Positions 2,692 through 55,718 of a stretch of DNA of 64,000 bases are shown here, in pieces (the first letter of the stretch is position 1; every line of letters begins with the position of its first letter). A model generated the notes under the pieces. The model was not told where the DNA came from. It did not search any database and was given only the letters and a program-made list of their open reading frames with translations. Source of the stretch: Fibrisoma limi BUZ 3. GTDB taxonomy: Bacteria; Bacteroidota; Bacteroidia; Cytophagales; Spirosomataceae. The DNA lies in NCBI RefSeq assembly GCF_000296815.2, contig NZ_CAIT01000009.1, positions 372,001 to 436,000 on the forward strand, in the 5' to 3' direction. The position numbers were made by a program, and so were the translations under genes.

Positions 2692-3732
2692 ATGTCACGT
2701 AACTTTAAGATTGGGGCGTTTCTGACCATTTGCATTCTGGCCACTACGTTCTCGTTTTATTTCTGGCAAGTGTTCAAAACTCCCAACCTGAATGCAAAGG
2801 AAGGCGCGAACGAACCCTTTGCCCTACTGATTCACAAAGGATCGACGTTTGACTCCGTTGTCGATTCGCTGAAAAAGCACGACGCCCTCGAAGATGAAGT
2901 TTCGTTTCGGTTTCTGTCCCGGCTCATGAAATACAACCAGCGGGTCAAGGAAGGCCGCTACGAAATTCCACCGAATACTGGCAACTACAACGCGATTGTT
3001 AAACTCCGCAGCGGCAATCAGGACCCGATGACCGTGACGTTCAACAACATCCGGCTCAAGAGCGATCTGGTACAGCGGCTCGGCAGCAAGTTTGAGTTCA
3101 GCACCGATACCCTCGCCCGGTTGCTCAACGACCCGGCGGTGTGCGCCCGATTTGGCTTCGATACGACCACCATCGTCTGCATGTTCCTGCCCAATACGTA
3201 CGAGTTTTTCTGGACCATCAAGCCCGACGCATTTCTGGAGCGGATGGGTAAAGAATACAAAAAATTCTGGACGCCAGAACGCCAGGCAAAGGCCAAAGCC
3301 CTTGGCCTAACCCAGACCCAGGCGCAGGTTCTGGCTTCGATTGTAGCCGCCGAAACCAACAAGCGCGATGAGCAGCCGCGCGTAGCAGGCGTTTACCTGA
3401 ACCGGCTGAAACGGGGTATTCGACTGGAAGCCGACCCGACACTGGTATTTGCCCACCGCGATTTTACCATCCGTCGGGTGCTAAACGTACATAAAGCCAT
3501 CGACTCCCCATACAACACCTATCGCTTTGCCGGGTTGCCGCCGGGGCCAATCAACCTGCCGTCGCCCGCGACTATCGACGCGGTGCTGAACCCAGAGGAA
3601 CATGACTATCTGTACTTTGTGGCCAAGGCAGACTTTTCGGGCTACCATACGTTTTCAAAAACCCTGACCGAACACATGGCAAACGCACGCATCTACCAAC
3701 AGGCACTTACCCAACGAAATATTATGAGATAA
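2692..3732 (+). CDS. mltG: Endolytic murein transglycosylase MltG (YceG family)
   Basis: MltG is an inner-membrane lytic transglycosylase that cleaves nascent peptidoglycan strands and so ends glycan elongation. The 346-residue protein has one N-terminal membrane segment (residues 7-25), a LysM-like region, and a C-terminal YceG domain with the conserved VAAETNKRDEQPRVAGVYLNR stretch that holds the catalytic Glu, followed by L.ADPTLVFA and the SPYNTYRFAGLPPGPI motif. Length fits the family. I start at ATG 2692 rather than the in-frame TTG 2668, because the TTG is inside the promoter box. Downstream comes an inverted repeat and then a thioesterase gene on the same strand. Confidence 0.93.
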   Translation: MSRNFKIGAFLTICILATTFSFYFWQVFKTPNLNAKEGANEPFALLIHKGSTFDSVVDSLKKHDALEDEVSFRFLSRLMKYNQRVKEGRYEIPPNTGNYNAIVKLRSGNQDPMTVTFNNIRLKSDLVQRLGSKFEFSTDTLARLLNDPAVCARFGFDTTTIVCMFLPNTYEFFWTIKPDAFLERMGKEYKKFWTPERQAKAKALGLTQTQAQVLASIVAAETNKRDEQPRVAGVYLNRLKRGIRLEADPTLVFAHRDFTIRRVLNVHKAIDSPYNTYRFAGLPPGPINLPSPATIDAVLNPEEHDYLYFVAKADFSGYHTFSKTLTEHMANARIYQQALTQRNIMR

Positions 3733-3785
3733 GGAGGAAGAGAGGAAAGGTATCAGCAATTCCCTCCTTTCCTCCCCTTCCTCCT
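3732..3785. repeat. Stop-proximal inverted repeat with purine/pyrimidine arms
   Basis: Left arm 3732-3750 (AGGAGGAAGAGAGGAAAGG) pairs with right arm 3766-3785 with one bulge; the loop is about 15 bases. It begins on the last base of the mltG stop codon. More C/T-rich sequence follows to 3815. It may act as a terminator or mRNA 3'-end hairpin, although there is no T-run. Confidence 0.7.
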
Positions 3786-3819
3786 TTCTCTCTTTCCTCA
3801 TTTTCTCCTCTTCTCCCCC

Positions 3820-4233
3820 ATGTTCACCTACGACGTAACCGACATTCGGGTCCGCTATTACGACACCGATCAGATGGGCATAGTGTATTACGGCAACTAC
3901 GCCCGTTTTTACGAAATTGGGCGGGTCGAAGCGCTGCGCGGCCTGGGTCTTAACTACAAAGACCTTGAAGATCAGGGTATCGGCATGCCGGTCTACGACA
4001 TGAAAAGCCGGTTTATCCGCCCCGCCCGCTACGACGATCTCCTCACTATCCGCGTCATAGTTCGCGAGTTGCCCCGCACTCGTGTCGTATTTCAGTACGA
4101 AATTTACAACCAGGAGGGTCACCTCCTCAACACCGGCGAAACTACCCTCGTTTTTCTGAAGAAGGGAAGCCGCCTGCCTGTTACAATCCCTGATGAATTG
4201 CTGGAAGTGGCAAAACCTTTTTTTCAAACATAG
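3820..4233 (+). CDS. Acyl-CoA thioesterase, YbgC/4HBT hotdog family
   Basis: This is a 137-residue single hotdog-fold protein predicted to hydrolyse acyl-CoA thioesters in the cytoplasm. The family active-site motif is clear near the N-terminus: YYDTDQMGIVYYGNYARFYE, where the Asp of DTD/DQMG is the catalytic residue and YYGNYxRxxE is the conserved helix. The protein has the length of YbgC-type enzymes. The tol-pal genes that often accompany ybgC are not nearby. It lies between mltG and a YihY-type membrane protein gene on the same strand and may be cotranscribed with them. The natural substrate cannot be told from sequence. Confidence 0.88.
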   Translation: MFTYDVTDIRVRYYDTDQMGIVYYGNYARFYEIGRVEALRGLGLNYKDLEDQGIGMPVYDMKSRFIRPARYDDLLTIRVIVRELPRTRVVFQYEIYNQEGHLLNTGETTLVFLKKGSRLPVTIPDELLEVAKPFFQT

Positions 4234-4320
4234 GTTAGATTTTTAGTCGCCTGTCCATTAGTAACCGAATGGACCAGACAGTTAAGGACTTAACCGAGCA
4301 ACGCAAAACGGCACAACGTT

Positions 4321-5283
4321 ATGTTTGAAAAACTGATGAATTTCAAGGCGCTGGAGGGAACGAAACAGTGGATGCGGAGGCACCAGGCGTTTAACTCCAA
4401 GCGAACCTGGTACGACTTTCTGAACAGTCTGATTGAGAAAATCAGCAGCAACGATTTCAGCGAACGGGCATCAGCCGTAGCGTTTAATCTCTTTCTGGCC
4501 GTTTTTCCGGCCATTATTTTTTTGTTTACACTGATTCCGTACGTACCGATTGATAACCTCGACGACCGGATTATGAACCTGCTGCGTCGGGCAATTCCGG
4601 CCGGAACGTACGAAGCTGTTTATACCACCATCCGCGACATCGTTAGTCGACAGCGGGACAGTGTTCTGTCATTCGGTTTTCTCCTGACTCTGTACGCAGC
4701 TACGAGCGGCATGGTTGCCCTGATGAATGCGTTCAACTCATCGCACGAATCGGCTGATCAACGTGGCTTTCTGAAAGTTCGGATGACGGCCGCCGGCCTG
4801 ACCTTTGTGCTGGCCTTTGGCCTGATCATAGCCATTGTTGTACTGGTGATTGGGGGAGTTGTTACCGATTACCTGCTGCAGTTTGGCATTCTGAACAACG
4901 TAGTAGTTGCCAACCTGCTCAGCATCGGCCGCTATCTGCTGGTGTTTGCCGTGTTCGTGGGCGTGGTATCGGTCATTTACCGGTTCGGGCCTGATGTGGA
5001 TATGAAGTGGTCGTTTGTGACGCCGGGGTCCATTTCGGCATCGGTGCTGATCGTGCTGGTCACCTTGGTCTTCTCCTTCTATGTGTCCAACTTTGGATCA
5101 TACAACAAGGTATACGGTTCGATTGGTACGCTCATTGCCCTGATGGTCTGGTTAAATCTGATTTGCCTGCTCCTTATTCTGGGCTTCGAAATGAACGTAT
5201 CGCTCTACAACCTGGAGGGCGACAAAGACCCGGATCCTGCCGAGAAGAAGACTGCAACGACAAACGCCACCCTCAATACGTGA
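4321..5283 (+). CDS. YihY/BrkB family integral membrane protein
   Basis: The 320-residue protein has a cytoplasmic N-terminus of about 55 residues followed by six hydrophobic helices, and the family hallmark near the first helix (ERASAVAFNLFLAVFPAIIF). A later conserved segment contains YNKVYGSIGTLIALMVWL, typical of the YihY/BrkB family (once called RNase BN, although that activity belongs to another protein). The molecular role is not settled; transport or envelope functions are proposed. The start is ATG 4321. The stop codon lies inside the loop of a terminator-like hairpin (5260-5295). Confidence 0.9.
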   Translation: MFEKLMNFKALEGTKQWMRRHQAFNSKRTWYDFLNSLIEKISSNDFSERASAVAFNLFLAVFPAIIFLFTLIPYVPIDNLDDRIMNLLRRAIPAGTYEAVYTTIRDIVSRQRDSVLSFGFLLTLYAATSGMVALMNAFNSSHESADQRGFLKVRMTAAGLTFVLAFGLIIAIVVLVIGGVVTDYLLQFGILNNVVVANLLSIGRYLLVFAVFVGVVSVIYRFGPDVDMKWSFVTPGSISASVLIVLVTLVFSFYVSNFGSYNKVYGSIGTLIALMVWLNLICLLLILGFEMNVSLYNLEGDKDPDPAEKKTATTNATLNT

Positions 5284-5295
5284 AGTGGCGTTTGT
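5260..5295 (+). terminator. Hairpin around the stop codon of the YihY/BrkB gene
   Basis: An 11-base perfect stem (ACAAACGCCAC at 5260-5270 with GTGGCGTTTGT at 5285-5295) encloses the stop codon. No strong T-run follows, so this is a probable rather than certain terminator. Confidence 0.55.
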
Positions 5296-5529
5296 AAACC
5301 CTAACCCATAAATGTACTTTTCCTCGCAGCGGTTTGCCCCGAAGCATTCGGCTGATTCTCCCAAAAAACCGTGCCAGATTTTTGGGCAACTTGGTTGTCA
5401 CTGATTTTGCGCTCCGTTTACTCAAAATGTTTACAATGCGATAGAATTATGATATATCATTACGGTACGCCGTCTTGATAAGGGATGCAACCTTGGCGGG
5501 ATACTTCATTAATAAGCCGTTAGTAACGC

Positions 5530-6573
5530 ATGATTTCGGTAACTGGGCAGTCCAACGACTTACCAATGAGTCCATACTTAAACCAGATTAAGCCCTGGGT
5601 AACCGTTATCTGTATCAGCTTCAACCACGAAGCCTACGTTGAAGAAGCGCTTCAATCGGTTGTGACGCAGACCTATCCGAACGTTGAATTAATCGTCATC
5701 GATAACGGCAGTACCGATCGCACACCTGAACGTATTGATGCCTTTGCGGCCAGACATCCGGGTGTTCAATTTATCAGAAATTCGGTCAACGTTGGCCTGA
5801 ACCGGGCGTTCAATCAGGGACTCAAACTTGCGGGAGGCCGCTACGTAATCGACCTTTCAGCCGACGACGTACTTCTTCCCGATCGCATTGCCCGGCAGGC
5901 CGATCTGTTCGAACGACTGGCCGGGCCGTATGCGGTAGTGTTCACCAATGCGCAGTATATCGACGAAAAAGGTCAATGTATTGGTTACCATTACCCGGTA
6001 GATAACCAGGGGAAAGCCCGCGTGAGCGTTCCGTCGGGCGATGTTTTCCGGAACGTACTGGAGTCGTATTACATTTGCACCCCAACCATGATGATGCGCC
6101 GTGACGTACTGAACGAACTGGGTGGGTATGACGAAGCCCTCGCGTTCGAGGATTTTGACTTCTGGGTCCGCTCGGCCCGGCTCTACCACTACGCCTACCT
6201 CGACGACGTTTTGACCTGCAAACGACGGCTTTCCGACTCCCTGTCTGCGCAAATCGCCAGGGCCGACAATCCGCTTTTACACTCGACGCTGGCCGTCTGT
6301 TACAAAGCGTTAGCCCGTTGCGAGACCCCCGACGAGCGCCAGGCTCTGGCCCGACGTACAAGGCGGTTCGTTCGCAAAGCGTTCTACGCCGAACAGTTTG
6401 ATCTGGCGCTGCGGTTTGGCCAGTTGTCGAGCCAGTTGGAACCACCGGATCTGTTGACCCGGTTCATCCTGGGCTTGAGCCGCCTTCACCTGCCTGTCAA
6501 TGGAATCTACCGGACGTACTTAAAATGGCGGGGAGCCGACTACGCCCTTAGCCCGGTCACAAAACTGGTCTGA
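5530..6573 (+). CDS. Family 2 glycosyltransferase
   Basis: The 347-residue protein is a GT-A fold glycosyltransferase predicted to transfer a nucleotide-activated sugar. The N-terminal domain (about residues 20-130) begins with VTVICISFNHEAYVEEAL, continues with QTYPNVELIVIDNGSTDRT, and has the nucleotide-sugar/metal motif LSADD around residue 115. A second conserved region, YDEALAFEDFDFWVR, matches the acceptor-side acidic motif of GT2 enzymes. There is no membrane segment. An ATG at 5566 (before SPYLNQIKP) is an alternative start that would remove a weakly conserved 12-residue leader. No polysaccharide cluster surrounds it, so the product glycan is unknown. Confidence 0.9.
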   Translation: MISVTGQSNDLPMSPYLNQIKPWVTVICISFNHEAYVEEALQSVVTQTYPNVELIVIDNGSTDRTPERIDAFAARHPGVQFIRNSVNVGLNRAFNQGLKLAGGRYVIDLSADDVLLPDRIARQADLFERLAGPYAVVFTNAQYIDEKGQCIGYHYPVDNQGKARVSVPSGDVFRNVLESYYICTPTMMMRRDVLNELGGYDEALAFEDFDFWVRSARLYHYAYLDDVLTCKRRLSDSLSAQIARADNPLLHSTLAVCYKALARCETPDERQALARRTRRFVRKAFYAEQFDLALRFGQLSSQLEPPDLLTRFILGLSRLHLPVNGIYRTYLKWRGADYALSPVTKLV

Positions 6574-6654
6574 GTCGATGAACGTAGGGGCTTTGTTTCG
6601 GTTGACGGCAAACATCTTTGGCTCCGAAACGTTGACCATGAAACTGCTGTTTCC

Positions 6655-7275: not shown

Positions 7276-7301
7276 AAAGTTAAGGCAAGATTCTATACTT
7301 G
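7271..7301 (+). promoter_or_regulatory. Bacteroidota-type promoter of the lipoprotein gene at 7376
   Basis: TTTG at 7271-7274, 19 bases, then TATACTTG at 7294-7301 (seven of eight matches to TAnnTTTG). The -33 element overlaps the stop codon of the preceding gene. The predicted leader is roughly 70 bases. Confidence 0.65.
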
Positions 7302-8581: not shown

Positions 8582-8623
8582 AAACGCGACAGTCGGCCCC
8601 TCCTGGGGCCGACTGTCGCGTTT
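8582..8623. terminator. Perfect 19-base hairpin with a 4-base loop
   Basis: Left arm 8582-8600 and right arm 8605-8623 are exact reverse complements (core GCGACAGTCGGCCCC) with loop TCCT. The arms end in AAA/TTT, as expected of a bidirectional terminator. It lies between converging genes, but 160 bases from one stop and 140 from the other. Confidence 0.75.
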
Positions 8624-10132: not shown

Positions 10133-10196
10133 AAAGAGCGAAAGAGTGAAAGAGCGAAATGTTAACGGCTGGCGTTCTTTCACTCTTTCGCTCTTT
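10133..10196. repeat. Inverted repeat between tRNA-Leu and tig
   Basis: A 19-base perfect stem (AAAGAGCGAAAGAGTGAAA at 10133-10151 with its complement at 10178-10196) has a 26-base loop. Each arm is itself made of GAAAGAG-type direct repeats. It begins about 15 bases beyond the tRNA 3' end on the minus strand and may end tRNA transcription. Confidence 0.75.
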
Positions 10197-10211
10197 CACT
10201 CTTTACTTTCG

Positions 10212-10293
10212 TACGGGCGGAGGGACTCGAACCCCCATGCCTTGCGGCACCAGATCCTAAGTCTGGCACGTCTACCAATTTCGCCACGCCCGC
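10212..10293 (-). tRNA. tRNA-Leu (anticodon UAG)
   Basis: On the minus strand a full class II cloverleaf can be read: acceptor GCGGGCG pairs with CGCCCGU, D-arm GGCGAAATTGGTAGACG, anticodon stem CCAGA/TCTGG with loop CTTAGGA giving anticodon TAG, a long variable arm, and the T-loop GGTTCGAGTCC. The discriminator is A and CCA is not encoded. The size is 82 bases. Confidence 0.95.
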
Positions 10294-10551: not shown

Positions 10552-12807
10552 ATGAACGCCACAACTGCCGAACCCGTCATTGACTTAGAGCAGGAACGAC
10601 AGGAAATCCTGAAACGCTATCGGCGCCTGCTGCGGGCTGCCAAACCGCTGTTGAAAGACAACGACGCCAAGCTGATCAAGAAAGCCTTCAATACCTCCGC
10701 CGAAGCCCACAAAAACATGCGTCGGCGGTCGGGAGAACCGTATATATACCATCCATTAGCCGTAGCGCAGATTGCCGTTGAGGAGATTGGACTCGGCACC
10801 ACCTCCATTGTGGCGGCCCTCCTGCACGACGTAGTGGAAGATACCGACATGACCATTGCCGACATCGAGCGGCTGTTTGGTCAGAAAGTAGCCCGGATCA
10901 TCGACGGGCTGACCAAGATCTCGGGCATTTTTGAATATGGCACCTCGCAGCAAGCCGAAAATTTCCGGAAAATGCTGCTTACGCTGTCGGACGACGTGCG
11001 GGTGATCCTGATCAAGCTCGCCGACCGGCTTCACAACATGCGGACACTGGATTCCATGCCCCGCGACAAACAGTTGAAGATTGCGTCTGAAACAATCTAC
11101 ATCTACGCTCCGCTGGCACACCGGCTGGGTTTGTACGCTATTAAGTCCGAGCTGGAAGACCTTTACCTTAAGCACGTAGAGCCGGAAGCCTACAAGGACA
11201 TTGCCCGCAAGCTGCGGGAGACCCGGCTGGCCCGCGACCGCTTCATCAATCGATTCATCGAACCAATTGAGCAGGATCTGGCTGAAACCGGCATTAAATA
11301 CATTGTCAAGGGACGACCGAAATCGATTTATTCCATCTGGAACAAACTGAACAAGTCGAAGAAGCCGTTCGAGGAAATCTACGACCTGTTCGCCGTTCGG
11401 ATTATTCTCGATATTCCGTCTGACGAGGAGAAAGCAGCCTGTTGGCGGGCTTACTCCATCGTAACGGACCATTACAAGCCCAATCCCGACCGCCTGAAAG
11501 ACTGGATCAGCACGCCACGCACCAACGGGTATGAATCACTGCACACCACCGTCATGAGCAAAACCGGCCAGTGGGTAGAGGTGCAGATACGTACTGAGCG
11601 GATGAATGAAATTGCTGAAAAAGGCTACGCGGCCCACTGGAAGTACAAGGGGAACGACACCCAGACCGGCGCGGGTATTGAAGCCTGGATCAGTCAGGTA
11701 CGCGACATGCTCGAAACCGCCACGAGCAACACCGACAAGAAAACCGCCATTGAGTTCGTCGATGATTTCCGCAGCAATCTCTACAGCGAAGAAGTCTTCG
11801 TGTTCACACCCAAAGGTGATCTGAAAGTGCTGCAGCGTGGCGCTACGGCACTTGATTTCGCGTTCGACATTCACACGCAGATCGGCGCTCACTGCATGGC
11901 GGCCAAGGTAAACAATACGCTCGTTCCGCTCAGCCACGTACTGCAAAACGGCGATCAGGTGGAAGTAATCACCTCGAATCGCCAGAAGCCGAGCGAAGAC
12001 TGGCTCCGGTTCGTGGTTACGTCGAAAGCCAAAACCAAGATCAAGGACCTGATCAAGGAGGATAATCGACGCTACGTTACGGATGGTCGCGATCTGGTTC
12101 AGAAGAAGTTGCGGGTGCTCCGGATGGAGATGACCAACGAAGTCATCAACCAGTTACGGGCTTACTTTGGCTCAAAAACCACCGACGACTTTTTCTACCG
12201 GGTGGGCAAGGGTCACATCGACGTTCAGGAACTCAAGAAGTTCAAAGCCGAAAAGGAAGCCCGCGAAAACCGCCAGAACAAGCTCAGCACCGACAACATT
12301 CAGGACGGCAAGACGTTCGAGAAAGAGCTGAAGAAGATCCACGGCGAGCGGGCTGATGCCGATATGCTCCTCATCGGTGAGGACATGGACAAGATCGACT
12401 ACACGCTGGCCAAGTGCTGCAACCCTATCTCGGGCGATGACGTATTCGGCTTCGTAACCATCAACGATGGTATTAAGATTCACCGCGTTACGTGCCCCAA
12501 TGCCGTCGAACTGATGTCGAACCACGGTAACCGCATCATCAAGGCGAAGTGGACATCGCAGAAAGAACTGGCCTTTCTGGCGGGTCTGCGCATCACCGGT
12601 ACTGACCGGGTAGGTCTGGTTAACGACGTTACCCGTGTCATCAGCAACGAGTTGCACATCAACATGCGTTCGGTGACGATTGACTCGAAGGATGGAATTT
12701 TTGAAGGCATTATTAAGCTATACGTAAACGACACCTCGCACCTGGAAACACTTATGCGCAAGCTGGAGCGGGTTCAGGGGGTGTTTGAGGTCGTACGATT
12801 TGATTAA
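10552..12807 (+). CDS. Bifunctional (p)ppGpp synthetase/hydrolase RelA/SpoT
   Basis: This enzyme makes and degrades the stringent-response alarmone (p)ppGpp. In order the 751-residue protein shows an HD hydrolase domain with HDVVED at residues 92-97, a RelA/SpoT synthetase domain (about 240-370) with PRTNGYESLHTTV, a TGS domain (about 415-480, VFVFTPKGDLKVL), a helical region, a conserved Cys motif LAKCCNPISGDDVFGF, and a C-terminal ACT domain (about 680-751). An intact HD motif indicates real hydrolase activity, so it is a Rel-type long enzyme. The start is ATG 10552. A large inverted repeat follows the stop codon and overlaps the fur promoter. Confidence 0.95.
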   Translation: MNATTAEPVIDLEQERQEILKRYRRLLRAAKPLLKDNDAKLIKKAFNTSAEAHKNMRRRSGEPYIYHPLAVAQIAVEEIGLGTTSIVAALLHDVVEDTDMTIADIERLFGQKVARIIDGLTKISGIFEYGTSQQAENFRKMLLTLSDDVRVILIKLADRLHNMRTLDSMPRDKQLKIASETIYIYAPLAHRLGLYAIKSELEDLYLKHVEPEAYKDIARKLRETRLARDRFINRFIEPIEQDLAETGIKYIVKGRPKSIYSIWNKLNKSKKPFEEIYDLFAVRIILDIPSDEEKAACWRAYSIVTDHYKPNPDRLKDWISTPRTNGYESLHTTVMSKTGQWVEVQIRTERMNEIAEKGYAAHWKYKGNDTQTGAGIEAWISQVRDMLETATSNTDKKTAIEFVDDFRSNLYSEEVFVFTPKGDLKVLQRGATALDFAFDIHTQIGAHCMAAKVNNTLVPLSHVLQNGDQVEVITSNRQKPSEDWLRFVVTSKAKTKIKDLIKEDNRRYVTDGRDLVQKKLRVLRMEMTNEVINQLRAYFGSKTTDDFFYRVGKGHIDVQELKKFKAEKEARENRQNKLSTDNIQDGKTFEKELKKIHGERADADMLLIGEDMDKIDYTLAKCCNPISGDDVFGFVTINDGIKIHRVTCPNAVELMSNHGNRIIKAKWTSQKELAFLAGLRITGTDRVGLVNDVTRVISNELHINMRSVTIDSKDGIFEGIIKLYVNDTSHLETLMRKLERVQGVFEVVRFD

Positions 12808-12814: not shown

Positions 12815-12885
12815 GCGTGGGGCAAGGAGCATAGGGCGTTGGCTACAATTAAAATCCCCCACGCCCTATGCCCCTTGCCCCACGC
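12815..12885. repeat. Stop-proximal inverted repeat between relA/spoT and fur
   Basis: Arms 12815-12839 and 12861-12885 are complementary at 24 of 25 positions, with a 21-base loop. It starts 8 bases after the relA/spoT stop. The right arm contains the -33 TTG (12875-12877) of the fur promoter. Confidence 0.85.
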
Positions 12886-17873: not shown

Positions 17874-18959
17874 ATGTCTTTTGCTCAATCTATGACACTT
17901 ATTGAACGCATACAAAATGTATTTCGGTCCGGTAAGCAACCCGTTACTACCCAGGTTGCGCCGGTTCTATCCGCTATTCCCTCAACTTCCGCGGTGCAGG
18001 CAACCGTACAACCCGACGTATTAATTGCTGATGTACCCTACGTAGTCGAGCCACTGCCTCACTGGATCGCCGATGAGGACGCGTTACGTGACGAGGGCGT
18101 GCTTTTTGGTCTATCGGAAGCCGGGCCTGAAGAGAAAGTGGCTGTTATTCGTTATCATTTTGCCCAACAAACCGCTCCCGTTGAGCAGGAAATCGAGCGA
18201 TACACTGAAAAAATTGGTGAACTGAACCTGCTCATTGAGCAGAAAGGAACCCGTATCAACGATCTGCGGCAGCAACTCGACAAACTCCGTACCCGCTCAT
18301 TTGTCGAGACGTACCTGCCGCGGACGTTGATCGGCCTATGCTTATCCATCGTGATGTGCATTGGTACGTTCTTTTTAATCGACGATACGCTCCAGCCGAC
18401 TTTCCCCAACAACCGGTGGATCGCGGTGGGTGTTTACCTTACGGGCATGTTTGGCCTGTTCAACCGCACGTCGGTATTTCATGATGCCGGAGCCCGGCTT
18501 TCGGGTCGTCGGCTCCTCGAGGAAATCGGGTTACCGCTGGCGACATCGCTGTTTGTGCTGGCGCAGGCCTGGTCAACGCGACCAGTCTGGTCGGCGCTTG
18601 CCCTGTTTGTTTTCGTCTTTTTCGTGTTTCTGCTGGCGGGTAAGCTAACGTTAGGGCTGTTCACCGTACTGGGCAATGATCTGGCGGGCCTTCAAACCAA
18701 TCGGCAGCTACGCCGTGATCGGGAGCAGCAAGTGCCCGTTCTGGAAGCCAGTCTCCATCAGCTTACCCAGGAAACTGATACCATCCGGGCGCAGAAGTGG
18801 CCGCTGGTGACGGCCCTCAACCGGACAGAAGCCGAGGTAACCCGATTGAACGCCCGGCGGGATCAGCTTGTTAACCTATTTATCAGCGAATTCGAATTGG
18901 CCCGCAGCCTCCGGGACCGGCTCACGGAACGGCAACGGGCGGAAATTTTGACCAGGTAA
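17874..18959 (+). CDS. Membrane protein with flanking coiled coils, unknown function (pair member 1)
   Basis: The protein has 361 residues from ATG 17874; ATG 17892 (before TLIERIQNVF) is an alternative. A variable N-terminus (1-60) leads to an acidic conserved-looking segment ADEDALRDEGVLFGL, a coiled coil (about 100-142), four hydrophobic helices (about 150-172, 181-197, 217-233, 238-266) and a second coiled coil (about 275-358) rich in Glu, Arg and Gln. Both coiled coils would lie on the same side of the membrane. I recognise no family. The next gene encodes a protein of the same plan, 86 bases downstream after a large inverted repeat, so the two probably form one membrane complex. Confidence 0.82.
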   Translation: MSFAQSMTLIERIQNVFRSGKQPVTTQVAPVLSAIPSTSAVQATVQPDVLIADVPYVVEPLPHWIADEDALRDEGVLFGLSEAGPEEKVAVIRYHFAQQTAPVEQEIERYTEKIGELNLLIEQKGTRINDLRQQLDKLRTRSFVETYLPRTLIGLCLSIVMCIGTFFLIDDTLQPTFPNNRWIAVGVYLTGMFGLFNRTSVFHDAGARLSGRRLLEEIGLPLATSLFVLAQAWSTRPVWSALALFVFVFFVFLLAGKLTLGLFTVLGNDLAGLQTNRQLRRDREQQVPVLEASLHQLTQETDTIRAQKWPLVTALNRTEAEVTRLNARRDQLVNLFISEFELARSLRDRLTERQRAEILTR

Positions 18960-18962: not shown

Positions 18963-19031
18963 GGTATTCGGTTTACGGTTTTAGGCCTGACCATCTGGGC
19001 AGCGCTCACCGAAAACTGTAAACCGAATACC
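18963..19031. repeat. Stop-proximal inverted repeat with GGTTTACGGT words
   Basis: GGTATTCGGTTTACGGTTTT at 18963-18982 pairs with 19012-19031 over 20 bases, the only deviation being a G-U pair. The loop is 29 bases. It starts 4 bases after a stop codon, and a further CGTAAAC word follows directly. Confidence 0.85.
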
Positions 19032-20419: not shown

Positions 20420-20434
20420 ACTTACCTCTGATTG

Positions 20435-20477
20435 ATTCCCAGAGTCCAGAAAGTTGAATCTTCTGGACTCTGGGAAT
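20435..20477. terminator. Bidirectional terminator hairpin
   Basis: A 17-base perfect stem (ATTCCCAGAGTCCAGAA at 20435-20451 with its complement at 20461-20477) and a 9-base loop lie between two converging genes whose stops are at 20419 and 20484. Confidence 0.85.
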
Positions 20478-20483
20478 CACTGT

Positions 20484-23692: not shown

Positions 23693-25264
23693 ATGGAAAA
23701 GGATCTTGGCGACCGCCCCCGGTCATCTGACTCGCTCTGGCAGGTGGCCCTGGATCAGTCGGCCAGTGGTATAGTTATTTACGAAGCTGACCGTCGGGAT
23801 GATGGCCAGATCGATGCCCTATGGGTACGTCTGGTTAACCGACGGGCAGAGGATATAATTGGCCTGGCCAGGCAGGATATGATCAATCAGAAAGCCGCCA
23901 ATTTGTTTCCATCTGCTCAGCCCACTACCCTCTGGGAAAACATACATCACGTCATCAACACGGGCAAACCCCACCGTTCCGAGCTGTTTTACCAGGTCAG
24001 CCGAACGCACAAAGACCATTGGTTTGATCTGTGCATTGAACCCGTTGGCGACGGACAGTGTGCCGTGGTATCGTTTACGGATATTACAGCGTTGAAGAGC
24101 ACCACGCAGGCCCTAATGGGGGAAGCGATCCTCTTCGAGACCCTATCCACGACCGTACCGGGCATGTGCGTCGTGGTCGTTGACCACAATCAGCAAATAC
24201 TCTTTGCCAATGGAGAACTTCCGGGTCTCTACAGCAACCGGCACCCGGAAGAGATGATCGGTCAGCCGATTATCGATACGATCATACCCGAGTTCAAGGC
24301 TGACTGGAAACGCTACGTCGGTACGGCACTCAACGGCGAACAGCACTCGTTCAGCGACCATTGGGGCGGCTGGCGGTGTGAATGTTACGTTGGCCCGGTT
24401 CGTAATGAACTGGGCGAGATTACGATGGGCATCTGCGTGTACCGCAACGTATCGGAACAGTACCGACAGCAGCAAACCCTTCAGCGCATGAACAATGACC
24501 TTCAGCGTTCTAACAAAAGCCTGGAACAGTTTGCCTACGTAGCTTCCCATGACCTGCAGGAACCCTTACGTAAAATCAAATCCTTCGGCGATGTTCTGGC
24601 GGAACGATACGCAGACCAGCTCGATGAAGCTGGTCATGACCTGATCCGGCGTATGCAGTCGGCCGCCGACCGAATGAACACATTAATCCGGAACCTGTTG
24701 AATTACGCCCGGCTTACGCCCCCCACGGACGTATCCCAACAGGCAAATTATCGGCTGATTAGTCTGATTGATCTGCTGAACGATTTGCAGACGGATCTGG
24801 AGGTAATGGTCAACGAGCACCAGGCTATTCTGAAGGTAGGTACAACCATTCCGATGGTGCCGGGCGACCCGACGCAGCTACGGCAGTTGTTCCAGAACCT
24901 GATTGTAAATGCCATCAAATTCAGTCGGCCTGACATCCAACCCAAGGTAACCGTTTCCGGCAGCCTGATCAGGGGGGTCGACGTACCGGAATTCCCGACT
25001 GTTGATCGAACGCAGGAATATGCAATCGTCAGTGTGCAGGACAATGGGATCGGTATCGATCCGAAGGACTATGAAAAGATTTTTGGTCTGTTCAGCCGAT
25101 TGCACGGCCGCCAGCAGTTTGCCGGATCAGGGATTGGGCTCGCCACCTGCAAGCGGGTAGTTGAAAATCACGGTGGTACTATTGCGGTCGAGAGTAAAGT
25201 CGGGCGTGGTTCTACGTTCCGGGTTTACTTACCGCTACACGTACCCGAACAGATAGTTAATTAG
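23693..25264 (+). CDS. PAS-domain sensor histidine kinase
   Basis: The 523-residue protein has two PAS-like domains (about residues 14-135 and 148-255), a coiled segment, and a HisKA domain with phospho-acceptor His286 in VASHDLQEPLRKIK. The HATPase domain shows the N box NLIVNAIKFS (402-411), G1 box QDNGIGI (449-455) and G2 box GSGIGLATCKRVV (478-490). No signal peptide or membrane helix is present, so it is a cytosolic sensor, of the kind often related to phytochrome-type kinases. There is no receiver domain and no adjacent response regulator, so it is an orphan kinase. Confidence 0.92.
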   Translation: MEKDLGDRPRSSDSLWQVALDQSASGIVIYEADRRDDGQIDALWVRLVNRRAEDIIGLARQDMINQKAANLFPSAQPTTLWENIHHVINTGKPHRSELFYQVSRTHKDHWFDLCIEPVGDGQCAVVSFTDITALKSTTQALMGEAILFETLSTTVPGMCVVVVDHNQQILFANGELPGLYSNRHPEEMIGQPIIDTIIPEFKADWKRYVGTALNGEQHSFSDHWGGWRCECYVGPVRNELGEITMGICVYRNVSEQYRQQQTLQRMNNDLQRSNKSLEQFAYVASHDLQEPLRKIKSFGDVLAERYADQLDEAGHDLIRRMQSAADRMNTLIRNLLNYARLTPPTDVSQQANYRLISLIDLLNDLQTDLEVMVNEHQAILKVGTTIPMVPGDPTQLRQLFQNLIVNAIKFSRPDIQPKVTVSGSLIRGVDVPEFPTVDRTQEYAIVSVQDNGIGIDPKDYEKIFGLFSRLHGRQQFAGSGIGLATCKRVVENHGGTIAVESKVGRGSTFRVYLPLHVPEQIVN

Positions 25265-25314
25265 TTCAGGGTTTACAGTTTCCTGCCAGCGTCGAAACCT
25301 GTAAACCCTGAACT
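25263..25314. repeat. Inverted repeat between converging genes
   Basis: AGTTCAGGGTTTACAG (25263-25278) pairs exactly with CTGTAAACCCTGAACT (25299-25314) around a 20-base loop; the kinase stop codon overlaps the left arm. The arms contain a GGTTTACAG word like that of the other repeats. It probably serves as a bidirectional terminator. Confidence 0.8.
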
Positions 25315-25320
25315 GAATAC

Positions 25321-26022
25321 TTATTTCGCGCTGGCAAACAGTTGCCCTACTTTATCCCAGTCGTACACGTTCCAGGCAGCCGCAACGTAGTCGGGGCGCC
25401 GGTTCTGGTATTTGAGGTAGTACGCATGTTCCCACACGTCCAGACCCAGCAGGGGCGTACCTTTTTTGTCGGCCAATTGCATCAGCGGGTTATCCTGATT
25501 GGGCGTCGAGGTGATTTCCACGTCGTTACCCGTCTTAATCAGCCATACCCAGCCTGAGCCAAAGCGACCGCCGGCAGCTTTTGCCCATTCAGACTTAAAG
25601 TTGTCGAACGAGTTATACTTCCGGTTGATGGCCTCAGCGAGTGCGCCCTTCGGTGCGCCACCTCCTTTAGACGACAGAATGCTCCAGAAGAATGTGTGGT
25701 TCCAGTGCCCGCCCCCGTTGTTTCGGATAGCGGCCGGTGTACTGCTGTCGATACCTTTCACCAGATCATCAATATTCATCGATGCATATTTGGTACCGGC
25801 AACAGCCTTGTTCAGGTTATCCACGTAGGCTTTGTGGTGCTTATCGTGGTGAATTTCCATCGTCGTTTTATCGATGTGAGGTTCCAGCGCTCCTGCATCG
25901 AATGGCAGAGGAGCCAGTTTGAACGGCCCTTCAGCCTGGAAGGAGCTTAATCCATACGAACGAAGAGTAGTAAGGCCAAGGGATGCACCGAAAGCCAGTT
26001 TCAGAAACTCGGAACGATTCAT
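25321..26022 (-). CDS. Exported superoxide dismutase, Fe/Mn family
   Basis: The enzyme dismutates superoxide. The 233-residue protein carries an exported leader (residues 1-30, [19 protein letters not shown]), in which FLK follows Arg-Ser-Glu rather than the twin Arg of a Tat signal. The mature part shows both domains of Fe/Mn [30 protein letters not shown], and the metal-binding [15 protein letters not shown] with Asp and His ligands. I start at ATG 26022; a longer reading to 26238 overlaps recR and has no export signal, so it is rejected. Metal preference cannot be told. Confidence 0.93.
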
Positions 26023-26836: not shown

Positions 26837-26902
26837 TGAATGAGCGAATGAGTGAATGGTTCAATTAATGAATTTCAGCGTCGGTAATCGTTCGCTCATT
26901 CA
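26837..26902. repeat. Inverted repeat between clpS and recR
   Basis: TGAATGAGCGAA (26837-26848) pairs exactly with TTCGCTCATTCA (26891-26902), loop 42 bases. It spans from 19 bases past the clpS stop to the base before the recR start codon, so it could fold in the recR leader. Confidence 0.65.
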
Positions 26903-28778: not shown

Positions 28779-28793
28779 CTACGTCCTTCAGAT

Positions 28794-28832
28794 AACCACA
28801 AACGCCTGGCAACTTGCCAGGCGTTTGTGGTT
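28794..28832. terminator. Bidirectional terminator hairpin
   Basis: AACCACAAACGCCTGGCAA (28794-28812) and its exact complement (28814-28832) form a stem of at least 16 pairs with a short loop. It lies between the symporter stop (28778) and the stop of the converging small gene (28834). Confidence 0.88.
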
Positions 28833-28833
28833 A

Positions 28834-40832: not shown

Positions 40833-41498
40833 ATGAAAGTCACGATCGCCGAATCCTGGCAGCAACGGCTGCAACCTGAGTTCGATAAGCCCTATTTTCG
40901 CGATTTAGCCGAATTTCTCCGCGACGAATATTCTACCCAGCGCATCTACCCACCCGGCAAACTCATTTTCAACGCGTTCAACCAATGTAGCTTCGACGAT
41001 ACCCGTGTTGTCATTCTGGGCCAGGACCCGTATCATGGCGAAGGCCAGGCCAATGGGCTGGCCTTCTCGGTAGCCGATGGCATCACAAAACCGCCCTCGC
41101 TCATCAATATTTTTAAAGAAATTCAGGATGACCTGGGTAAGCCAATTCCTAAATCGGGCAACCTCGAACGCTGGGCGGTACAGGGGGTTCTGCTGTTGAA
41201 TGCAACCCTCACCGTACGGGCTGGTCAGGCCGGTTCGCATCAGAACAAGGGTTGGGAAACCTTCACCGACGCCGTTATCAAGCTCATTTCCGACGAGAAA
41301 GAGCACCTCGTGTTTATGCTTTGGGGCGCCTATGCCCAGAAAAAAGGGGCCGTCATTGATACCAGCAAACACCTGGTTCTAAAAGCCAAACACCCTTCCC
41401 CCATGGCTGCACAGTGGGGTGGCTGGTTCGGCAATAAGCATTTCAGCCAGGCTAACGAATACCTGGAAAGCAAAGGATTAGCTCCGATTAATTGGTAA
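40833..41498 (+). CDS. ung: Uracil-DNA glycosylase
   Basis: Ung removes uracil from DNA in base-excision repair. The 221-residue protein has the family-1 active site GQDPYHGEGQANGLAFSV, with the Asp that activates water, the LLLNATLTVRAGQAGSH segment and the HPSPMAAQWG motif with the catalytic His. Length is standard. It faces lepB across a long inverted repeat. Confidence 0.97.
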   Translation: MKVTIAESWQQRLQPEFDKPYFRDLAEFLRDEYSTQRIYPPGKLIFNAFNQCSFDDTRVVILGQDPYHGEGQANGLAFSVADGITKPPSLINIFKEIQDDLGKPIPKSGNLERWAVQGVLLLNATLTVRAGQAGSHQNKGWETFTDAVIKLISDEKEHLVFMLWGAYAQKKGAVIDTSKHLVLKAKHPSPMAAQWGGWFGNKHFSQANEYLESKGLAPINW

Positions 41499-41505
41499 AC
41501 GAGAA

Positions 41506-41563
41506 AAGGAAGGGGACGAAAGGAAAAAAGGTTTTACCCCTTCTCCCTTTCGTCCCCTTCCTT
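41506..41563. repeat. Stop-proximal inverted repeat between ung and lepB
   Basis: AAGGAAGGGGACGAAAGG (41506-41523) and its exact complement (41546-41563) form an 18-base stem around a 22-base loop. It begins 8 bases after the ung stop and ends 14 bases from the lepB stop. Confidence 0.85.
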
Positions 41564-41576
41564 CTTTCGTTCCTTC

Positions 41577-44339: not shown

Positions 44340-45266
44340 TTAAGCTGCCGTATGATTCAGCACTTCCAGAATCTTGTTGAGTTCCTCCTGCGATGTGAAT
44401 GGAATCTTAATCTCGCCTTTATGTTTTTCGTCGGCTTTAATGGACACCTTGGTACCAAACAGCGAAGAAAGCTTGAACTGAAGGCTGCGCATCTCCTGCT
44501 TGGGCAACGTAACGCGCCGGGCACTCGGTAGTTGGTCCTCGTCGCCATCGCCCAGATTCCGAACGGCTTCTTCAACCTTGCGGACCGACCAATCTTCGTC
44601 GATGGCGCGGTTGAACAACCGGATCTGCGTATCAGGATTTTCGATGTTGATGATAGCCCGGGCGTGGCCCATCGATATTTTATTATCCCGCAGCGCAGCC
44701 TGTATCACCGGCGGCAGTTTAAGCAGCCGAATGTAGTTATTGACGGTTGTCCGATTCTTGCCCACGCGTTCGCCCAGTTCCTCCTGCTTCAGACTACACT
44801 CGGTGATGAGCCGCTGGTAGCTGAGCGCAATTTCAATCGAATTGAGGTTTTCGCGCTGAATGTTTTCGATCAGCGCCATTTCGAGCATCTGCTGATCGTT
44901 GGCCGTACGGACGTACGCCGGGATATGCGTCAGCCCCGCGATCTTGGATGCCTGCAAACGGCGCTCACCCGAGATCAGCTGATAGCGATCCTTACCCAAC
45001 TGCCGAACCGTAATCGGCTGAATAATGCCCTGTGCTTTGATCGAATCAGCGAGTTCCTGCAACGCTTCCTCGTCGAAACGGGTCCGCGGCTGGAACGGGT
45101 TCGTTTCAATCAGCGTCAGGCTGATTTCGGTCATCGTACTGATGGACTCATACGGCGAGGGTTTACTCGGCCGGTTCACCGAATCGCTGTCCTGCAGCAG
45201 GGCGCCTAAGCCACGGCCCAATCCTATCATCTTCTTATTCGGCGCTTTGGTATTGGTGTTGTCCAT
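44340..45266 (-). CDS. parB: Chromosome-partitioning protein ParB
   Basis: ParB binds parS sites near the origin and spreads as a CTP-dependent clamp. The 308-residue protein has the CTP-binding N-terminal domain with PFQPRTRFDEEALQELADSI and the GERRLQAS motif, the helix-turn-helix ELGERVGKNRTTVNNYIRLL, and a C-terminal dimerisation region. It follows parA on the same strand 86 bases later. Parts of a parS-like site lie upstream of parA. Confidence 0.96.
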   Translation of the reverse strand: MDNTNTKAPNKKMIGLGRGLGALLQDSDSVNRPSKPSPYESISTMTEISLTLIETNPFQPRTRFDEEALQELADSIKAQGIIQPITVRQLGKDRYQLISGERRLQASKIAGLTHIPAYVRTANDQQMLEMALIENIQRENLNSIEIALSYQRLITECSLKQEELGERVGKNRTTVNNYIRLLKLPPVIQAALRDNKISMGHARAIINIENPDTQIRLFNRAIDEDWSVRKVEEAVRNLGDGDEDQLPSARRVTLPKQEMRSLQFKLSSLFGTKVSIKADEKHKGEIKIPFTSQEELNKILEVLNHTAA

Positions 45267-49427: not shown

Positions 49428-49431
49428 ACCT

Positions 49432-50527: not shown

Positions 50528-50533
50528 GTTTAA

Positions 50534-52618: not shown

Positions 52619-52622
52619 AGAA

Positions 52623-52653
52623 CAAATGTATCCGTAGTCAGTGGGTTTTCAAA
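52623..52653 (-). promoter_or_regulatory. Promoter of the GH13-like gene; leaderless geometry
   Basis: On the minus strand TTTG (52653-52650), exactly 19 bases, then TACATTTG (52630-52623). Four bases (TTCT) separate the box from ATG 52618. Confidence 0.75.
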
Positions 52654-52729
52654 CCGTTTGTTAGCACAGGCAGTTTGTAGATAGATAAACCAAATCAGTC
52701 GGATAAAGAATATAGAGTCCGTAGCGCCT

Positions 52730-53851
52730 ATGCAGGATGTCATCATTGCCGGTGGTGGGCTGGCGGGCCTTGTCAGCGCTCTGGAACTCGCGCAGGCGGG
52801 GCACCGTGTAACGCTGATCGAACGCAAAACGTATCCGTTTCACCGGGTTTGTGGCGAGTACGTCTCCAACGAGGTAAAGTCTTATCTTCAGTCTCTTGGC
52901 GTTGACCTGGGAGCGCTGGGAGTGGCCTCTATTGGACAGTTCTGGCTGTCGGCACCGTCGGGACGCTCTTTGCGGGCTCCGCTCGACCTGGGCGGTTTCG
53001 GCGTCAGCCGCTACACGCTGGATTATGAGTTGTTTAAACTCGGTGAAGAGGCAGGGGTTCAGTTTGTGCTCGGAAAAACAGTCGATGATATTGTCTTTAC
53101 GGATGAGGCTTTCATCGTCACACTGAACGATGGTGATACGATGACCAGTCGGTTAGTCATCGGGGCCTTCGGCAAACGGTCGAAGCTGGACAAAACCTTT
53201 AACCGGGCGTTCATGAACCAGCCGTCGCCCTACATTGGCGTCAAATATCACATCCGGACCGATTTTCCGACTGACCTGATTGCTCTGCATAACTTTCCGG
53301 ACGGCTATTGCGGCATGTCGGCCATTGAAGACAATAAATATTGTCTCTGCTACCTGACTACTCGCGATAATATCCGACGGTTCGGTAATATCCCTGACAT
53401 GGAAACGGCTGTTCTCCATCAGAATCCGCATTTGAAAGCAGTTTGGGCAAACTCCGACTTCTTATATGAAAAACCGGAGGTGATCAATGAGGTATCGTTT
53501 GCCGCCAAACAGGCCATCGAAAACCACATTCTGATGGTCGGCGATTCGGCTGGGCTCATTACACCCCTCTGTGGCAACGGCATGGCGATGGCGATCCACG
53601 GTGCCAAACTGGTCAGCAGCCTGGCCAATCTTTTCCTGGCGGACCAGTTGTCGCGGTCGGCGCTGGAAAACCACTACCAGTCGGCCTGGTCGCAACGGTT
53701 TGCGCGCCGGCTGTGGGTTGGCCGAACGGTCCAGCGCCTATTCGGCGACAGGTGGTTATCGGAAGCGGCCGTCAGCGTATTTGGGACGTTCAGACCCGCT
53801 CTTACGAGCGTTATGCGGCAAACCCACGGGGAAATGGTACCCGTTTACTGA
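52730..53851 (+). CDS. FAD-dependent oxidoreductase, geranylgeranyl reductase-like
   Basis: The 373-residue flavoprotein starts with the dinucleotide-binding motif VIIAGGGLAGLVSALELAQAGH, has the FHRVCGEYVS segment that is typical of geranylgeranyl reductase/lycopene-cyclase-like FAD proteins, and the FAD motif GDSAGLITPLCGNGMAMAI (about 270-288). It would reduce or hydroxylate a lipid or polyketide-type substrate. In other Bacteroidota such genes often accompany pigment or alkylpyrone genes, but none is seen here. Converges on the Lrp gene with a 3-base gap. Confidence 0.87.
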   Translation: MQDVIIAGGGLAGLVSALELAQAGHRVTLIERKTYPFHRVCGEYVSNEVKSYLQSLGVDLGALGVASIGQFWLSAPSGRSLRAPLDLGGFGVSRYTLDYELFKLGEEAGVQFVLGKTVDDIVFTDEAFIVTLNDGDTMTSRLVIGAFGKRSKLDKTFNRAFMNQPSPYIGVKYHIRTDFPTDLIALHNFPDGYCGMSAIEDNKYCLCYLTTRDNIRRFGNIPDMETAVLHQNPHLKAVWANSDFLYEKPEVINEVSFAAKQAIENHILMVGDSAGLITPLCGNGMAMAIHGAKLVSSLANLFLADQLSRSALENHYQSAWSQRFARRLWVGRTVQRLFGDRWLSEAAVSVFGTFRPALTSVMRQTHGEMVPVY

Positions 53852-53854
53852 CAG

Positions 53855-54307
53855 TCAGATCGGCACTACCGTCGAATTTTTCACTTCGGCCATCACAAAA
53901 AAACTGCTGATGTGCAGGATGCCCGGAATGACCGACAGCCGTTCCTGGTAAAACCGATTGTAAGACTCCATATCCTGGCTGATGATCTTAACGAGGTAGT
54001 CGAACGTACCGGACACCCGGTTGCATTCGAGCACTTCCGGCAACTGACGAATAGCCGCGTCGAAGTCGGCAAACGTATCCCGCGTCTGTTTGTCGAGTGT
54101 TACCTGGCAGTAAATCATCAGCAGGTTACCCAGCTTTTTCTTATCGAGAATCGTTACGTATCGGTCGATGAATCCTTCGCGTTCGAGCCGCTTGATTCGC
54201 TCGTGGACCGGTGTCTTCGACAGGTTGATCTGCTGCCCGATTTCCTGGATAGTCAGGCGGGCGTTTTCCTGCAGCAAAGCCAGAATCTGACGATCAATTT
54301 TATCCAT
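53855..54307 (-). CDS. Lrp/AsnC-family transcriptional regulator
   Basis: The 150-residue protein has an N-terminal winged helix (DKIDRQILALLQENARLT; IGQQINLSKTPVHERIKRL) and the RAM ligand-binding domain (about 65-145) with VSGTFDYLVKI. I start at ATG 54307, since the in-frame leader to 54367 is unlike Lrp proteins. It stands divergent to the alanine dehydrogenase gene, the classic arrangement of an alanine-responsive regulator and its target, so control of ald is inferred. Confidence 0.93.
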   Translation of the reverse strand: MDKIDRQILALLQENARLTIQEIGQQINLSKTPVHERIKRLEREGFIDRYVTILDKKKLGNLLMIYCQVTLDKQTRDTFADFDAAIRQLPEVLECNRVSGTFDYLVKIISQDMESYNRFYQERLSVIPGILHISSFFVMAEVKNSTVVPI

Positions 54308-54443
54308 TGTCGGGGATGACGGAAATTTTACGGTGGCCGGACAACATTTCTGCAATAGTAAGAACAAATTCCTGCTATGCAGCTGAAATTACATACAGTT
54401 TCCTAAATTAATAGGTACTCTTAGAAAATTTATACCATCAATT

Positions 54444-54451
54444 TAGTTTTG
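54444..54451 (+). promoter_or_regulatory. -7 box of ald (TAGTTTTG)
   Basis: A perfect TAnnTTTG 32 bases before ATG 54484. A TTA lies 20 bases upstream in place of a TTG. The 176-base gap to the Lrp gene should hold the regulator binding sites. Confidence 0.55.
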
Positions 54452-54483
54452 CTTTATTGATACCTTCAAACTCATTCAGCATC

Positions 54484-55614
54484 ATGGTTATTGGTGTTCC
54501 CAAAGAAATTAAAAACAATGAGAACCGGGTGGCTTTAACCCCGGCAGGTGTGGCCGAGCTGCGCAAGCACGGACATACGGTATACGTTCAGGTCAATGCC
54601 GGCGAAGGCAGTGGGTTCGAAGACGAGGAGTACATTGCGGCCGGGGCACAGATGCTGCCCACGATCGAGGACGTGTACGGCATCGCCGAAATGATCATGA
54701 AGGTGAAGGAGCCGATCGCGCAGGAATATGGTCTGATTAAAGAAAATCAACTGCTGTTCACCTACTTTCACTTTGCTTCGTCGGAGGAACTGACGCGGGC
54801 TATGCTGGCTAAAGGTGCTGTTTGCCTTGCCTACGAAACTGTAGAAAAAAACGATCGTAGTCTGCCGCTGCTGGTTCCAATGTCGGAAGTAGCCGGCCGT
54901 ATGGCAGTTCAGGAAGGGGCTAAGTATCTCGAAAAACCGCTGAAAGGCCGGGGTATTCTGCTGGGTGGCGTACCAGGTGTAAAACCAGCCAATGTCCTGA
55001 TTCTGGGCGGTGGTATCGTCGGCACACAGGCCGCCAAGATGGCTGCCGGTCTGGGCGCGCACGTAACGATCATGGACATCAGCCTGCCGCGTCTGCGCTA
55101 CCTGTCGGACATCATGCCGTCGAACGTACAGACGATGATGTCGAACGAATACAATATCCGCGAGATGATTAAGGTATGCGACCTGATCATAGGGGCGGTA
55201 CTGATTCCGGGAGCCAAAGCTCCGCACCTTATCACCCGCGATATGCTGAGTCTGATGCGGCCCGGTACGGTGCTGGTCGACGTAGCCGTTGACCAGGGTG
55301 GCTGCATTGAAACCTGCCAGCCGACCACACACGAAAATCCGACCTATATCATTGACGGCATCGTACACTATTGCGTGGCCAACATGCCCGGTGCAGTGCC
55401 CTACACAAGTACGGTTGCCCTCACGAACGCAACGCTGCCCTACGCGCTGCAACTGGCCAATAAAGGCTGGCAGCAGGCTTGCCGCGACAACATGGACCTG
55501 CAACTGGGTCTCAACGTAGTGGATGGCAAAGTGGTGTACAAAGGCGTAGCTGATGCATTCGGTCTACCGCTGACCGACGTTAAGGAAATCCTGCGCGACG
55601 AAGTCGAAGCGTAA
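54484..55614 (+). CDS. ald: Alanine dehydrogenase
   Basis: Ald interconverts L-alanine and pyruvate plus ammonia with NAD(H). The 376-residue protein begins VIGVPKEIKNNENRVALTP, with the N-terminal substrate domain, and has the NAD-binding site ILGGGIVGTQAAKMAAGLGA (about 171-190) and the GLPLTDVKEIL end. I start at ATG 54484; an in-frame TTG at 54457 lies right after the promoter box and is not likely. A large inverted repeat follows the stop. Confidence 0.95.
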   Translation: MVIGVPKEIKNNENRVALTPAGVAELRKHGHTVYVQVNAGEGSGFEDEEYIAAGAQMLPTIEDVYGIAEMIMKVKEPIAQEYGLIKENQLLFTYFHFASSEELTRAMLAKGAVCLAYETVEKNDRSLPLLVPMSEVAGRMAVQEGAKYLEKPLKGRGILLGGVPGVKPANVLILGGGIVGTQAAKMAAGLGAHVTIMDISLPRLRYLSDIMPSNVQTMMSNEYNIREMIKVCDLIIGAVLIPGAKAPHLITRDMLSLMRPGTVLVDVAVDQGGCIETCQPTTHENPTYIIDGIVHYCVANMPGAVPYTSTVALTNATLPYALQLANKGWQQACRDNMDLQLGLNVVDGKVVYKGVADAFGLPLTDVKEILRDEVEA

Positions 55615-55621
55615 GGTTTAG

Positions 55622-55718
55622 TTAAACGCAAGGGGCGTCAAGAAAACGTAGCGTTCGCAGAGGAAATAAGTATTGTTCCTTGCGAGCCTTGCGTCTTCTT
55701 GGCGCCCCTTGCGTTTAA
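55622..55718. repeat. Stop-proximal inverted repeat after ald
   Basis: Arms 55622-55648 and 55692-55718 match over 27 bases, with one G-U pair and one mismatch, around a 43-base loop that itself can form a smaller hairpin. The left arm begins 8 bases after the ald stop and the right arm runs 4 bases past the stop of the converging gene (55715). Confidence 0.85.

Follow-up and report, generated by a model that had tools for sequence, protein, structure and literature searches.

What are the long inverted repeats that stand behind so many genes in a 64 kb stretch of the Fibrisoma limi BUZ 3 genome (the window; part of contig C6 in a genome of 7.63 Mb)? The original prediction, made from the letters of the window, treated them as a single set of large-loop hairpins anchored at stop codons. 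We find that two classes had been mixed. Short-loop hairpins (class A) are mostly ordinary intrinsic terminators with long stems. Large-loop hairpins (class B) form a non-random population behind genes, with arms often built of degenerate tandem 7-8-mer words that are shared between sites, a C-poor 5′ arm and fast turnover of arm sequence, and they look like an unusual cousin of known dispersed bacterial palindromes. The interpretation that we prefer, to which we give roughly an even chance, is that class B comprises dispersed intercistronic RNA hairpins akin to repetitive extragenic palindromes (REPs) and bacterial interspersed mosaic elements (BIMEs), with arms rewritten by inverted-repeat-templated mutation.

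All nine intervals of the original prediction contain inverted repeats as described, and these do share one geometry. Scanning the 64 kb gives nine hairpins that score at least 36, where ten local dinucleotide shuffles give none at all; at a threshold of 28 the count is 10 and the shuffle mean 0.1. Seven of the nine listed sites score at least 38, and 26837 scores 28. At 3732 the ungapped finder took another pairing (score 26), and RNA folding recovers the listed one. Folding z-scores for the nine sites run from -2.8 to -10.9 relative to shuffles; 26837 is the weakest fold, matched in stability by 1 of 200 shuffles. Two hairpins absent from the earlier list, 8582-8623 and 28793-28833, have short loops and are among the nine strongest in the window.

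The window is syntenic across nearly its whole length with a sister species (G001; contig of 169,390 bases), at an identity of about 84-86%. The wider sample consists of genome stretches: 784 kb of Fibrisoma limi, 169 kb of G001 and sequence from other Spirosomataceae, with genes called by our own codon-usage caller rather than taken from a published annotation. The predicted excess over shuffled sequence extends beyond the window, as 384 kb of the same contig contain 55 hairpins scoring at least 28 and dinucleotide-shuffled intergenic regions (IGRs) give 0.2 per replicate. Two of the 55 are mostly coding and 53 are intergenic, in 53 different IGRs. At a slightly lower threshold there are 144 hairpins in 144 different IGRs (784 kb of this genome and 169 kb of G001). 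The predicted position 3′ of genes also holds, with 20 of the 53 between convergent genes, 31 between co-directional genes and 2 between divergent genes, where IGRs of at least 40 bp number 37, 161 and 50, respectively. One divergent case is a site behind a tRNA-Leu gene.

We define class A by loops of at most 8 nt and class B by loops of at least 12 nt, a split that was picked after the first sites had been seen, with the periodicity and skew described here later repeated in other genera. In Fibrisoma this gives 67 class A and 68 class B hairpins. Arms of class A use all four letters. GC skew in the 5′ arm of class B exceeds 0.5 in 32 of 68 hairpins and falls below -0.5 in one, the corresponding numbers for class A being 6 and 2 of 67. 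Class B arms also show self-similarity, with z = 7.3 at lag 8 and z = 3.9 at lag 7, where class A is near zero. The signal recurs outside Fibrisoma: four other genera supply 28 class B hairpins with a peak at lag 7 (z = 8.5), and three Spirosoma genomes supply 41, mostly from G049, with a peak at lag 8 (z = 6.4).

A G+C-rich hairpin followed by a U-tract, the usual mark of an intrinsic terminator, describes class A and fails to describe class B. Within co-directional and convergent IGRs the canonical pattern is matched by 44 of 65 class A hairpins and 5 of 64 class B hairpins, in agreement with the earlier view that the large-loop sites are not ordinary intrinsic terminators. Class A has a T-run at the 3′ base in 36 cases out of 94, compared with 7 of 94 further downstream. 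Nor do class B hairpins often have a canonical terminator nearby in Fibrisoma, where one lies elsewhere in the IGR in 1 of 64 cases, as against 54 of 390 IGRs that have no long hairpin. Rho is present in all four genomes searched.

The two classes also differ in spacing. Between co-directional genes, class B hairpins start a median of 5.5 nt past the stop codon and end 19 nt before the next start; the class A medians are 16 and 91 nt. With the hairpin subtracted, the median spacer is 27 nt for class B, 120 nt for class A and 80 nt for co-directional IGRs without a hairpin, so many class B hairpins fill what would otherwise be operon-like spacers. Of 49 co-directional class B hairpins, 31 leave less than 35 nt to the following start codon; in class A it is 8 of 36. 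Class B hairpins hardly ever lie in promoter regions.

The arms had been described as differing in sequence between sites, a point that we revise, since they are not unrelated. Those of class B sort into families of words that are scattered across the genome: purine tracts, GGTTTACGGTTT, AAAGAGYG, GTTTGTAG, CGCARAG and GAATGATTGA. A 10-mer is common to another site in 34 of 56 class B arms, compared with 11.8 in shuffles of the same single arm, and in 9 of 52 class A arms compared with 0.9; at k = 8 the class B count of 39 lies inside the shuffle range (mean 29.6, maximum 39). This genome has 25 copies of the word AAAGAGTGAAAGAGCGAA, G001 has 6 and G005 has 19, with no match to a backwards control; the word is present in 5 of 29 relatives in all. 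Within the genus of G005 it is found in 28 of 36 genomes (0 to 77 copies each), whereas 147 further genomes sampled from the phylum gave no copy. The word GCAAAGACGCAAAG has 13 copies here and none in G001; 7 of 29 genomes are positive, with one control match (G021).

These words have a polarity. Across 152 class B hairpins, the named motifs occur 73 times in the 5′ arm and once in the 3′ arm. Because the motifs had been named from 5′ arms, the skew test and the order of paired copies are the fairer evidence: where exact copies of a word lie close together in opposite orientations, the word comes first in 9 of 9 cases, and in the genomes of the G005 genus it does so in 34 of 34 pairs among the matches listed.

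Among species with 85-90% identity, hairpins often keep their places while their arms change. Among 97 IGRs that are syntenic in the two Fibrisoma species, 26 and 24 carry a hairpin and 19 do so in both, in a comparison whose 60-nt loop limit missed the limi hairpin at 129413 that another comparison detects. In 10 of these 19 the identity of the 5′ arms is within 0.07 of shuffled sequence, and for two of the ten (168934 and 246023) homology as elements is doubtful. Spirosoma pairs with 92.6, 92.2 and 89.5% identity share a hairpin in 16 of 94, 10 of 64 and 24 of 75 IGRs, respectively. The word family has switched at the same spot between G049 and G029 in IGRs 69545 and 122610, and at 44820 the stem has been perfected in one of G032 and G033. 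A three-way comparison of 19 IGRs shows stems at 17914 and 34067 that carry several paired changes and still pair in two or more of the species. For loops of 10 nt or longer, 30 comparisons gave 16 that are alike in the same orientation, 3 inverted and 11 neither; inspection by eye added inversions at 148670 and in a palindrome beside a RAYT-like gene (discussed below). The original prediction thus judged correctly that structure is kept over sequence, the hairpin's place often being retained while its arms are rearranged or replaced. Fixed conserved DNA sites are ruled out by the same differences between species. Its suggestion of a mechanism that writes inverted copies is borne out in part, by the replacement of arms as matched pairs and by the inverted loops.

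Eight of the nine listed sites belong to class B, and 20433, with its loop of 9 nt, falls between the classes. Most begin at or near the 3′ end of a gene, as had been claimed; the exception to the stop-codon rule is 10133-10196, which follows a tRNA-Leu gene. The sites at 20433, 25251, 41498 and 55622 lie between convergent genes, each next to two stop codons. The features are as follows.

3732-3785, plus strand: class B hairpin with purine-tract arms (AGGAGGAAGAGAGGAAAGG), whose first base is the final base of a YceG-like gene (2668-3732), in its stop codon; a different purine-tract hairpin occupies the spot in the sister species.
8582-8623, no strand assigned: class A hairpin with a perfect 19-bp stem and 4-nt loop, between convergent genes; the sister IGR has another perfect stem.
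10133-10196, minus strand: class B hairpin whose arms carry the 8-mer AAAGAGYG three times, 14 nt behind the 3′ end of the tRNA-Leu gene; arms of the GAATGATTGA type in the sister species.
10211-10293, minus strand: tRNA-Leu gene.
12815-12885, plus strand: class B hairpin with a 25-bp stem, 7 nt past the stop of a RelA/SpoT gene and 23 nt from the next start; decayed in the sister species.
18963-19031, plus strand: class B hairpin whose words belong to the GGTTTACGGTTT family, 3 nt past a stop and 14 nt from the next start; several Spirosoma have different words here, and the sister-species copy has decayed.
20433-20479, no strand assigned: hairpin of intermediate class with a perfect 19-bp stem and 9-nt loop, between convergent genes; a perfect and wholly different 25-bp stem in the sister species.
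25251-25326, no strand assigned: class B hairpin, arms GGGTTTACAGTTT; it overlaps the stop codons of two convergent genes.
26837-26902, minus strand: class B hairpin with arms of the 8-mer GAATGAGY, abutting the recR start and 19 nt past the upstream gene's stop; the sister species has lost the right arm.
28793-28833, no strand assigned: class A hairpin with a perfect 19-bp stem and 3-nt loop, between convergent genes.
41498-41571, no strand assigned: class B purine-tract hairpin between convergent genes of the uracil-DNA glycosylase superfamily and for a signal peptidase; purine-tract arms of different sequence in the sister species.
55622-55718, no strand assigned: class B hairpin with a 38-bp stem, between an alanine dehydrogenase/PNT gene and a convergent gene.

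The last of these is the longest hairpin here and stands at the spot where a contig of the sister species stops, 83 nt past the alanine dehydrogenase/PNT gene there (G001:C2:1-83). A hairpin at this spot may have broken the sister-species assembly.

These genomes also contain some other palindromes. The dispersed palindrome family TGTAGAGACGCC...GGCGTCTCTACA occurs in G049/G029 IGRs 62941, 70192, 103584, 106288 and 121698, at different sites in the two genomes, and in limi IGR 168934. The G001 IGR matching window position -60747 has a hairpin, TTTGTCATGCTGACGCAGGAAGC..., that resembles G049/G029 hairpins with TTTGTCATGC arms. The motifs GGCTGACGC and GCGTCAGCC recur weakly in or beside class B loops, most often in G009; as a candidate loop core, GGCTGACGC with at most one mismatch has 5 hits among 96 class B loops taken together with their inner arms (shuffle mean 0.8, maximum 4), a signal too weak to be used.

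Integron attC sites were dismissed as an account of class B by reasoning, since the hairpins lie between syntenic genes and on both strands. Miniature inverted-repeat transposable elements (MITEs) were rejected as there is no excess of target duplication: 66 of 68 Fibrisoma class B hairpins have no direct repeat of at least 4 nt at the foot (permuted mean 63.0). One MITE-like element, unlike the word hairpins, was seen in G033, where the counterpart of G032 IGR 33177 carries a clean 80-nt hairpin insertion with a 5-nt direct duplication that is absent in G032. An Rfam search at gathering thresholds returned tRNA as its sole match.

The closest likeness is to REP, BIME and REPIN elements, which two reports describe as dispersed intergenic palindromes, often spaced inverted pairs, with proposed RNA hairpins (PMC3733652, PMC3116915). 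Class B resembles them in its intergenic dispersal between co-directional or convergent genes, its inverted layout and its position near stop codons. It differs in having no common core, its arms instead being 7-8-mer words of several families alongside many singletons, in its fixed C-poor 5′ arm, and in lacking the GTAG/CGTC tag, which was found at 7 and 1 of 136 hairpin feet (controls 2 and 1).

The genome does encode a protein like the REP-associated tyrosine transposases (RAYTs), at L161:11966-12661 on the minus strand, with 79.8 bits to NF047646, just below the cut-off of 80; it is conserved in G001 at 87%. In both Fibrisoma species each flank of this gene carries a GGCCAAGC/GCTTGGCC palindrome pair (in L161 at 11888-11955 and 12615-12687), one flanking loop being inverted between the two species. 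These GGCCAAGC palindromes are few and REPIN-like, and it is they that stand beside the putative cognate RAYT; no word hairpin was found there.

Could the class B hairpins nevertheless be REPINs, that is, non-autonomous elements mobilised by the RAYT that the genome encodes, each word being a degenerate REP? The palindromes just described are hard to reconcile with this, as is the absence, in three Spirosoma, of any hairpin scoring at least 22 within about 1.5 kb of a close RAYT. The lack of a core or tag argues in the same direction, and G005 has its 19 word copies without a close RAYT relative. On the other side stand the RAYT-like gene itself and the agreement in location and inverted-pair layout. 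Close RAYT relatives (E <= 1e-90) occur in 5 of 17 genomes searched, which include the four richest in AAAGAG of the 17 (25, 66, 73 and 77 copies; the fifth has 6). Because copy number goes with RAYT presence, the RAYT may have a role in the spread of the words. Applied to 200 kb of E. coli K-12, the scan yielded five hairpins of class A and four of class B, three of the latter looking like what we take to be REP or BIME units. Taken together, we regard mobilisation as REPINs as decidedly unlikely. It is also unlikely that class B hairpins are intrinsic terminators of an unusual kind, with the pyrimidine-rich 3′ arm replacing the U-tract, given that the residual spacers noted above are mostly too short for a promoter, the canonical match is rare and covariation is weak. 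Such terminators would account for strong stems behind genes, for two-way use between convergent genes and for a polarity that places the pyrimidine-rich arm on the 3′ side of the RNA. T-runs are found at the 3′ base of 19 of 79 class B hairpins and further downstream of 8 of 79, and RNA:DNA hybrid steps are weaker in the 3′ arm (-1.35 versus -1.50 kcal), a difference that class A shows as well.

Alternatively, the hairpins may be functionless mutational by-products, in which word slippage and template switching act anywhere and selection clears genes and promoters. Such clearing accounts for the scarcity in divergent IGRs, and the near-neutral decay of aligned arms, the loop inversions and the paired replacement of arms all fit. 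Local template switching, however, leaves unexplained both the words shared genome-wide and the single polarity of different words; we judge this account very unlikely. Template-switch mutation as such is described, in one report, as producing perfect stems in one event, paired changes and loop inversion in microRNA and rRNA genes (PMC8794818). Class B shares these three signs, and its setting of dispersed word families differs from the genes treated there. A further partial likeness is to heptamer repeats such as TAACTGA, reported from intergenic regions of Beggiatoaceae, cyanobacteria and five Bacteroidetes, where most lie shortly before start codons (PMC4679880). These too are seven-letter tandem intergenic words with several copies per genome and an unclear route of spread; they are direct repeats with no inverted partner arm, in contrast to the degenerate and paired words here. 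For such hairpins in Spirosoma or Bacteroidetes we recognised no report in the literature, most subscription journals lying outside the search, and the words themselves matched one unrelated paper.

REP and BIME elements in enterobacteria are proposed to act as intercistronic or 3′-end RNA structures. Under the REP/BIME-like interpretation that we prefer, the polar word hairpins of class B would sit in transcribed intergenic DNA past a stop codon or tRNA, often before the next start. The RNA hairpin could then block 3′ exonucleases, insulate cistrons or terminate weakly in both directions between convergent genes. As with intrinsic terminators, a stable hairpin stands behind the stop codon; unlike them, class B combines large loops with a rare U-tract and often leaves no promoter room before the next gene. 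Template switching or exchange within the hairpin would renew its sequence, making perfect arms, flipping loops and allowing tandem-word slippage in both arms, and words would pass between sites by some copying route.

Several observations weigh against this interpretation. In Spirosoma there is no clear rarity of terminators beside class B (2 of 39 versus 20 of 217), and in some cases a canonical terminator directly precedes such a hairpin (L123, L134). No named word is present in 88 of the 152 class B hairpins (about 58%), and these are less skewed (59 positive versus 22 negative), so class B is mixed; it includes REP-like and MITE-like elements. One-sided changes dominate the aligned class B stems (28 sites, class B here being all loops above 8 nt), with 50 broken pairs and 22 G-U pairs, so that pairing is not under strong maintenance; paired double changes number 17 (14 + 3), versus 8.0 double changes under permutation. 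In the aligned class A stems (28 sites), 26 paired doubles (6.8 doubles expected) stand against 21 broken and 14 G-U pairs, an excess indicating that pairing is held by selection. The compensatory pairing proposed originally is therefore clear in class A and weak in class B, whose stems look as if they were born perfect, then decayed and were frequently renewed.

A more specific idea, which we consider possible but on balance improbable, is that class B hairpins are self-renewing RNA hairpins with no transposase of their own. Tandem 7-8-mer words in both arms would allow slippage and template switching to rewrite an entire stem in one go while place, polarity (the C-poor arm leading) and structure persist, the RNA being what is selected. 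Unrelated words would then share a polarity because selection acts on the RNA and not on the DNA.

There are thus two kinds of hairpin behind genes in these bacteria, and terminator annotation fits only one of them. The origin and persistence of long perfect stems is an open question in RNA evolution. In this family of genomes young hairpins are numerous, the spots of paired replacement and loop flipping between sister species are known, and a polarity rule extends over different words. With young hairpins, their sister-species replacements and that rule in hand, both renewal by template switching and selection at the level of RNA become directly testable.

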